This document shows, in pieces, positions 43,226 to 45,089 of a DNA stretch of 64,000 nt. Both the position numbers and the translations under genes were made by a program. The notes beneath the pieces are model-generated. The model was not told the DNA's origin and made no database searches. It worked only from the letters and a program-made list of their open reading frames with translations. Position 1 is the stretch's first letter. Each line of letters begins with the position of its first letter. The stretch is from Alphaproteobacteria bacterium. Its GTDB lineage: Bacteria; Pseudomonadota; Alphaproteobacteria; UBA9219. The stretch covers positions 213,915 to 277,914 of the forward strand of contig JAMFSS010000002.1 in assembly GCA_026225415.1 (NCBI GenBank). Direction: 5' to 3'.

Positions 43226-44154
43226 CAAAACTTGCTTTAACAATCGGCGACCCCACCGGCATCGGCGCGGAAATCACCGCCAAAGCTTTAGCGCGTATCG
43301 GCGCATTTCCCGATACAACATTCGCCGTGATTGGCGCACTGGACGGCTTGATGAAAACAGCCGCTGACTTGAAGATCACCCTGCCCCAAGCCAATGTGAC
43401 ATATCACGATATCCTGGCCGATAAACCGGGTGCGGTCGCGTATCAGGCATTAGTGCATGCCGCCACAATGTTGGCGGCGGGCGAGGCCGATGCGTTGGTC
43501 ACAGGCCCCATTTCCAAGAAAAATCTGGCAGATGCAGGCCACGCCTATCCCGGCCATACGGAAATATTGGAAAATCTGGCGCAACGTTTTTTCAACGTGC
43601 CGGATGCCCGCGCCGAAATGCTGTTCATCTATAAAAAATTCCGCCTGCTACTTCTCACGCGCCATATTGCGCTCGCCGATATTCCGGCGGCGCTTGCCAA
43701 ACCCAGCGCAGTTTCCCGCCCGCTTAAGACCCTTATCCGCTTTTTCCGCGACCACGCCAAAATTGATGAACCACGCATCGCCATCCTCGCCCCCAATCCG
43801 CATGGCGGCGAAGTGGGCGGCGAAGAAGAAAAGAAATATATCATGCCGGTTATCCATGCCGTGAATGGCGTGGGCGCGTCACGGCTTGAGGGATGTTTTG
43901 CGGCGGACGCGTTTTTCCGCGACTTCGATGCCAGCACCACCCCCTATGATGCGGTTGTCGCCACCTATCACGACCAGGGGCTTATCCCTTTTAAATTACT
44001 GGCGGGGTATGAGGCCGTAAACGTCACTATCGGTCTTCCCTTTATCCGCACCTCCGTCAGCCACGGCACCGCGGAAGACATTGTTGGCAAAGGTATTGCG
44101 CGGGAGGATAGTTTGGTGGCGGCGATACAAGCAGCTACGGAATTAGTGAAGTAA
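43222..44154 (+). CDS. pdxA: 4-hydroxythreonine-4-phosphate dehydrogenase
   Basis: LALTIGDPTGIGAEITAKAL; HAYPGHTEILE; ATYHDQGLIPFKLL; RTSVSHGTAEDIVGKG. Confidence 0.97.
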   Translation: MTKLALTIGDPTGIGAEITAKALARIGAFPDTTFAVIGALDGLMKTAADLKITLPQANVTYHDILADKPGAVAYQALVHAATMLAAGEADALVTGPISKKNLADAGHAYPGHTEILENLAQRFFNVPDARAEMLFIYKKFRLLLLTRHIALADIPAALAKPSAVSRPLKTLIRFFRDHAKIDEPRIAILAPNPHGGEVGGEEEKKYIMPVIHAVNGVGASRLEGCFAADAFFRDFDASTTPYDAVVATYHDQGLIPFKLLAGYEAVNVTIGLPFIRTSVSHGTAEDIVGKGIAREDSLVAAIQAATELVK

Positions 44155-44162
44155 CTTTCAAC

Positions 44163-44214
44163 AAGAACTGCACGAATTCCCCTCCCCTTGCGGGAGGGGT
44201 TAGGGGCGGGGTCA
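44163..44214. repeat. left inverted repeat flanking DUF559 gene
   Basis: ctgcacgaattcccctccccttgcgggaggggttaggggcggggtca (44168-44214) is a perfect 47-nt reverse complement of 44618-44664; extends to 52 nt with one mismatch. Confidence 0.95.
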
Positions 44215-44604
44215 CAGGTTACCAGCTAGAATTTCATTTGCACGATTAAGAATGGCAGAAACAACATTCCCCCTATTCTGCACAACATCAGAATTCACAA
44301 ACCTCATAACTGTATAGCCCATACCTAATAAATGTTTGTCTCGCTCTTTGTCTTTTTCAAGCCGTAGATCATGCGAAACACCATCAACTTCAACCACCAA
44401 CCTAAGCTTCAAGCATACAAAATCTGCAATGTAGGGATGAAGAGGATATTGACGACGAAACTTTATGGGCAAGCCTTTTGTAGCAACACGAAGCTCATAC
44501 CACAAAATATCTTCACCATTTGTTGGTTCACGACGCATCTGTTTGGCGCGGCGATAATCTGCTGGTTTGTTTTTATGCGTGGCAAAATTTGATGGATCGA
44601 TCAT
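44212..44604 (-). CDS. DUF559 (Vsr/endonuclease-like) protein
   Basis: LWYELRVATKGLPIKFRRQYPLHPYIADFVCLKLRLVVEVDGVSHDLR..GYTVMRFVNSDVVQN. Confidence 0.92.
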   Translation of the reverse strand: MIDPSNFATHKNKPADYRRAKQMRREPTNGEDILWYELRVATKGLPIKFRRQYPLHPYIADFVCLKLRLVVEVDGVSHDLRLEKDKERDKHLLGMGYTVMRFVNSDVVQNRGNVVSAILNRANEILAGNL

Positions 44605-44617
44605 TTTTCTGACCTAT

Positions 44618-44669
44618 TGACCCCGCCCCTAACCCCTCCCGCAAGGGGAGGGGAATTCGTGCAGCTCTT
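44618..44669. repeat. right inverted repeat flanking DUF559 gene
   Basis: tgaccccgcccctaacccctcccgcaaggggaggggaattcgtgcag; internal hairpin cccctccc-gcaag-gggagggg. Confidence 0.95.
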
Positions 44670-44684
44670 ACCGCACGATACTTC

Positions 44685-45088
44685 CTAAACCGCAACCGCC
44701 AGCTTGGCTGTGACGATTTCCTGCAACGCTAATAACGCATCGCGGTCGGCCTCGGGCGTTGCAGCGATTTTGCCTTCCAAAGCCTTGGCTTCGGTTTCCA
44801 AAGCTACGCGGTTGAGTTGTTTGACGGGAATGGCTTCATCGGCCAAAACGGTGCAACGTGTCTGCGTGGTTTCGGCAAAGCCGCCCGCCACAAAAATACG
44901 TTCCGACAAAACTTCCATATCATCGGCATAAATGCCGATCACACCCGCCTTGACGGTGGTGATAAGCGGCGAATGTCCCGCCAGCACGCCATATTCGCCC
45001 TCGCCGCCCGGTACGGTGACCATGGCGACCGGCTTGCTGATCAACAGCTTCTCCGGCGAAACGAGTTCAAACAGGATACTGTCGGACA

Positions 45089-45089
<1 letters not shown>
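44685..45089 (-). CDS. atpC: F0F1 ATP synthase subunit epsilon
   Basis: LFELVSPEKLLISKPVAMVTVPGGEGEYGVLAGHSPLITTVKAGV. Confidence 0.96.

Follow-up and report, generated by a model that had tools for sequence, protein, structure and literature searches.

Repeats of the triplex-motif type (TM/PIT) are built from a C-arm, a loop, a G-arm, a linker and a mirror tail, and were described as multi-copy, intergenic and in some cases arranged as inverted pairs (Holder et al. 2015, PMC4666352); PIT elements were also treated by Hoyne and Maher, as cited in PMC4666352. That study reported the motif from more than 260 genomes, gonococci having about 100 G/C-rich TMs, and found no link to mobile elements or to what the neighbouring genes do. 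The E. coli motif formed a triplex in vitro, while an in vivo footprint gave no sign of it, and earlier work, as cited in the same paper, had detected neither promoter nor terminator activity of these motifs. The REP/RAYT arrangement (REPtrons, REPINs; PMC3733652) comprises dispersed palindromic repeats with a gene between inverted copies, gene-less inverted pairs, a low gene copy number and an extragenic bias. DUF559 is a large protein family of unknown function, one member of which, NGO0050 from Neisseria gonorrhoeae, has a solved structure (3hrl) entered in the PDB under the name “putative endonuclease-like protein”. In PMC12907096, the Caulobacter DUF559 protein VsrA caused an SOS response in methyltransferase-lacking cells, a sign that at least one DUF559 protein is able to damage DNA in vivo. 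A link between DUF559 and repeats was not found in the portion of the open PMC literature on DUF559 that was covered.

The unit described here lies within a DNA stretch of 64,000 nucleotides (the window), in the gap between the convergent genes pdxA (plus strand, ending at 44154) and atpC (minus strand, 44685–45089), and its features are listed in Table 1. An earlier note had reported exact 47-nt inverted repeats around a lone 130-aa DUF559 gene, a stop codon in the left repeat, a start codon 13 bp from the right repeat, one hairpin per arm and the convergent pdxA/atpC gap; direct reading, the ORF list and Pfam bore out the repeats and the lone gene, and the remaining points were confirmed as well. 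The two arms are exact reverse complements as read from the sequence, the repeat search extended the pair to 44148–44214 and 44618–44684 (67 nt, 90%), and a single ORF is found between the arms, its TGA occupying 44212–44214. As in a REPtron, the window gene sits between inverted copies of a palindromic repeat that is dispersed in the genome. The analogy to REP elements drawn in the earlier note held for a minimal, REP/RAYT-like unit carried by its repeats but not for the repeats themselves, which by their sequence are of a different family, TM/PIT; the note was correct but understated; it had overlooked the third arm (TTA plus GGGGCGGGG), further repeat copies elsewhere in the genome and three additional DUF559 units.

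Table 1. Coordinates of the DUF559 unit in the window and the basis of each feature
Feature	Position	Strand	Basis or remark
Left arm, 47 nt	44168..44214	+	TM-type; perfect inverted repeat of right arm; tail gene-ward
Left hairpin, CCCCTCCC-CTTGC-GGGAGGGG	44179..44199	+	Sequence reading; DNA fold
Linker TTA and G-rich tail GGGGCGGGG (third arm)	44200..44211	+	Sequence; mirror test on relatives
DUF559 gene, 130 aa, predicted Vsr/EDxHD-fold nuclease	44212..44604	-	ORF, profile match, structure model
Right arm, 47 nt	44618..44664	-	Perfect inverted repeat of left arm
Right hairpin	44633..44653	-	Tail gene-ward at 44621–44629, CCCCGCCCC on +
Outer extension of left arm, weaker	44148..44167	.	Pairs with 44665–44684; overlaps pdxA end

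Each arm consists of a C-arm (CCCCTCCC), the short loop, a complementary G-arm (GGGAGGGG), the short linker and a third, G-rich arm pointing towards the gene, i.e., the TM/PIT layout at 44179–44211 and again in the inverted copy. A direct repeat suggestive of target-site duplication, as in classical insertion sequences, was not found beside the arms (44160–44167 compared with 44665–44672), in agreement with the earlier note. GTAG, the mark of REP ends, was absent from the window arms, neither an intrinsic terminator nor a T-tract was called at either hairpin, and the Rfam search returned one weak match only, far under its gathering score.

The relation of the tail to the G-arm was determined for asymmetric purine arms by a mirror test in which A was allowed to become T and linkers were limited to 1–6 nt. 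For 127 tails the better fit was the mirror of the G-arm, for 2 it was a direct copy, and 38 were ties; a variant of the test with long linkers was noisy (97 vs 32) and was superseded by this version. A mirrored tail puts the arms in register for a purine-motif intrastrand triplex, and the TM/PIT layout (Holder 2015) is the same. The window copy is near-symmetric, with one mismatched triplet where a tail C stands opposite an arm A. The G-strand is a G-quadruplex motif too, and GGGGCGGGG completes its four tracts; the triplex reading was preferred because a G-quadruplex fold does not need the mirror rule. The unit repeats are assigned to the TM/PIT type and, judged from their sequence, should be triplex-capable. 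The window arms resemble the published elements in arm order, multi-copy and intergenic occurrence and occasional inverted pairing, whereas the published elements were described without a gene or mobile element and those analysed here are linked to DUF559. The subtypes are also wider here, with other arms and an extra linker hairpin. At five loci (L010, L011, L016, L099, L102), a TM variant carries such an extra hairpin (GCAAAAACTTAGGCTTACGC...) between G-arm and tail, and this variant also occurs without a gene.

The window protein matched DUF559 (PF04480) at 111.2 bits (gathering cut-off 20.6, E = 2.9e-32). The active site is conserved, E31, D61, D74 and H78 being among ten invariant columns in 85 proteins. 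The AlphaFold model (pLDDT 90.7) matched 3hrl, 3r3p (I-Bth0305I) and, more weakly, Vsr; profile matches had E-values of 1.4e-39 for 3hrl and 1.1e-4 for 3r3p, the latter with a structural TM-score of 0.73 on the target. On the strength of profile and model, the protein is predicted to be a single-domain nuclease of the Vsr/EDxHD fold. Values of dN/dS between close pairs were low (0.07–0.26), indicating that DUF559 genes are kept functional by purifying selection. The predicted enzyme shares the catalytic fold and E-D-H-D type residues with EDxHD homing endonucleases (I-Bth0305I, 3r3p; PMC3943268), and some units likewise lie in frame within conserved genes, whereas the window protein is a repeat-bracketed single domain of 130 aa with no appended DNA-binding region; an intron or intein was not seen. 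Fold and active-site layout are also those of Vsr and VsrA (PMC12907096), yet Vsr shows no overall co-occurrence with TM (see below). With REP/RAYT systems, the units have in common the dispersed palindromic repeats, the gene between inverted copies, gene-less inverted pairs, few gene copies and an extragenic bias. RAYT, in turn, is a HUH (Y1) enzyme acting with GTAG-bearing REPs, whereas a PD-(D/E)XK/Vsr-fold nuclease is predicted here together with TM; Y1_Tnp had no match in the window protein and none at E ≤ 1e-10 in the window genome. The window protein had no match in an anti-phage defence library.

A scan of the genome collection supplied 80 DUF559 loci from many phyla, and further loci came from the family of the window genome and from even draws over the class and the phylum; the scan is biased towards relatives of the query, and the class and phylum draws agree with it in result. 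DUF559 genes are paired with the repeats in many phyla. A C-rich/G-rich TM-like hairpin was found within 300 bp of 157 of 161 DUF559 genes (on both sides in 106), compared with 5.9% (one side) and 0.25% (both sides) of 792 control ORFs from the same loci, and hairpin density dropped with distance from the domain, being 7.6 per kb in the first 100 bp and about 0.1 per kb past 500 bp. Flanking inverted repeats scored at least 41 at 115 of 208 DUF559 units; the same was true of 2 among 925 control ORFs and of none among 1089 random places, so that chance does not account for them. In the class and phylum draws, this strict score was passed by about half of the units (13/29 and 12/26, respectively); those failing it have diverged or one-sided repeats. 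In a set of 40 loci from Bacteroidota and other phyla, the hairpin was present on at least one side in 35 and on both sides in 16. The typical unit length was 503 bp, and the window unit is one among hundreds of units of about 500 bp spread through bacteria.

Arms are matched within, and peculiar to, each unit, and each paralogue has its own TM subtype. For 47 of 51 units in multi-unit genomes, the left arm matched the right arm of the same unit best (median score 72, vs 23 for other units). Among paralogues of one genome, TM similarity climbed with protein identity (rho 0.35, p 0.003), reaching 0.93 for paralogues more than 80% identical (two pairs only); between genomes, it followed protein identity weakly. 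One genome (G033) holds eight DUF559 units (L250–L257), mostly with their own matched TM subtype. A locus labelled Micavibrio (L020) has the same arms as L108, a locus of the window's family.

At the level of whole genomes, DUF559 and TM co-occur. Among 144 alphaproteobacterial genomes, an independent class sample scored with a strict TM pattern, 29 carried both, 11 DUF559 only, 9 TM only and 95 neither (odds ratio 28, p 7e-14). In 249 Pseudomonadota genomes, these four classes numbered 57, 19, 20 and 153, giving an odds ratio of 23 (p 7e-23), and the link persisted within families with an odds ratio of 13 (p 4e-7). The DUF559-only class is overcounted because the TM counting pattern spans two subtypes, and some of its 19 genomes probably carry others. 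A reversed-pattern control was near zero. Of 12 TM-rich genomes (50 copies or more), 10 carried DUF559. In the same 249 genomes, no significant overall link to TM was found for Vsr (PF03852; odds ratio 1.9, p 0.06), and none for the RAYT-type Y1_Tnp (PF01797; odds ratio 0.66, p 0.16).

The 2.02-Mb window genome contains strong copies of the window arm type in about nine places (9 copies; 6 of the strict pattern type) and four DUF559 genes, all of them between inverted hairpin repeats. The nearest paralogue, on C6, is about 60% identical and its repeat is almost the same as that of the window unit, and the two remoter paralogues (33–37% identical) have different repeat subtypes. Some gene-less copies have a longer architecture in common, with an extra hairpin. 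Three loci of this genome (L005, L007, L009) are solo repeats followed by a common TGCATAAAATATCTTTAGATATTTTATGC and a GTGCC/GGCAC double hairpin, which together form a longer composite repeat. At L015 (C5:97266-97577), a DUF559 unit is in frame with a downstream FolC-like gene, giving an open frame of 581 codons.

The units are insertions. In two congeners of the window genome (G008 and G010; L130, L131), pdxA adjoins atpC and the unit is absent, i.e., it varies by presence and absence at an otherwise conserved site. The earlier note had named two outcomes that would speak against its proposal, namely that the repeat is absent elsewhere and DUF559 homologues lack such repeats, or that strain comparison shows the gene to be ancestral with repeats acting only as terminators; neither was borne out, given the roughly nine places in the genome, the 157 repeat-bearing genes and the two empty gaps. 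In a third congener (G009, L129), directly after atpC, two inverted TMs stand about 100 bp from each other with no gene between them, a candidate non-autonomous form. In the Bacteroidota draw, DUF559 was found in 49 of 118 genomes, with many copies in frame within larger genes. Hosts of in-frame units include LeuRS, which is entered at the same site in five loci and at a second site in others (loci noted: L300, L302, L324, L022, L044), as well as MetH (three loci; L311, L317, L289), HsdR (L303), DNA methylases and M14 peptidase (L083, L092). In LeuRS, about 160 residues stand in place of three native ones before the editing domain, and in MetH the linker that joins the cobalamin domains has about 152 residues in place of eight. 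At the DNA level, both inserts have TM-like hairpins at both junctions, which are translated.

The unit is probably best read as a REP/RAYT-like or homing-like mobile module of about 500 bp, in which a DUF559 nuclease is bracketed by inverted TM/PIT repeats. The nuclease would recognise its own TM subtype, either as hairpin or triplex in single-stranded DNA or as duplex, and would nick or cut there; host recombination or repair may then copy the unit or the repeat ends to a new place. Gene-less TMs, single or in inverted pairs, would relate to the unit as REPs do to RAYT units, being its non-autonomous derivatives. Enzymes of the Vsr/EDxHD fold hydrolyse DNA without a covalent intermediate, and break-and-copy in a homing-like manner is therefore likelier than cut-and-paste. 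Against a mobile module stand that no movement was seen, that target-site duplication was not found, that the inspected E. coli sites vary by deletion, and that 20 genomes hold TM without DUF559 and 19 the reverse (strict pattern, 249 genomes); gene conversion could be another source of arm identity. The mismatched triplet of the window copy and the weak agreement of TM similarity with protein identity between genomes also count against it.

In the main rival account, TMs spread by another route, and inverted TM pairs are colonised by DUF559 acting as a free-standing homing endonuclease gene, with TM homology used for repair. It would fit the commonness of gene-less inverted TM pairs, including the one after atpC in G009, the fold shared with the EDxHD homing endonuclease I-Bth0305I, and the common sites that LeuRS and MetH copies occupy in different genomes. 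However, the near-constant presence of DUF559 in genomes with at least 50 TMs is unexpected under independent TM spread, and the private TM subtype of each paralogue also argues against this account, which is judged rather unlikely. Less probable still is a house-keeping role, either of DUF559 as a repair or structure-removing nuclease near structure-prone repeats or of the repeats as terminators or regulators of its gene. Hairpins do adjoin the gene ends, and VsrA was proposed in PMC12907096 to act in very-short-patch repair, but the hairpins lack a T-tract or terminator call, the earlier work cited in PMC4666352 gave these motifs no promoter or terminator activity, and such a role is at odds with the patchy presence of the units, with the empty site and with units found in frame inside genes unrelated to each other. 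Chance or a base-composition artefact, to which short, C/G-rich repeats might lend themselves, was already refuted by the reversed-pattern, random-place and ORF controls, and its probability is negligible.

Evenly poised between acceptance and doubt is the wider proposal that the mobile modules form a separate class of mobile element, ranging from Proteobacteria to Bacteroidota, Chloroflexota and candidate phyla, in which a lone restriction-fold nuclease recognises triplex-capable repeats, copies itself with them, seeds TM/PIT and enters essential proteins in frame. The REP/RAYT arrangement would then have a counterpart that works by different chemistry, and the marking of genome instability by TM/PIT repeats would be accounted for. 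TM/PIT repeats, known from hundreds of bacterial genomes, have until now had neither a spreading mechanism nor a partner gene, and their pairing with DUF559 would explain both repeat and protein family and offers a direct test, including in E. coli K-12.

In E. coli, TM_ECO no. 9 (Holder Table 1) lies 167 bp from ycjD, the K-12 DUF559 gene, whose locus (L126:8204-8420) is nearly whole in 3334 of 5395 E. coli genomes. As a plain case of presence and absence, ycjD was rejected, ycjD-less strains (O157 and others) holding the eefRABC efflux operon between fabI and sapF. E. coli TM sites were also rejected as clean insertions or duplications, with only deletion-type variation at yjdP-phnP, tauD-hemB and zntA-tusA. 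Three E. coli TM sites (L236, L237, L238) all lie between convergent genes, like the window unit.
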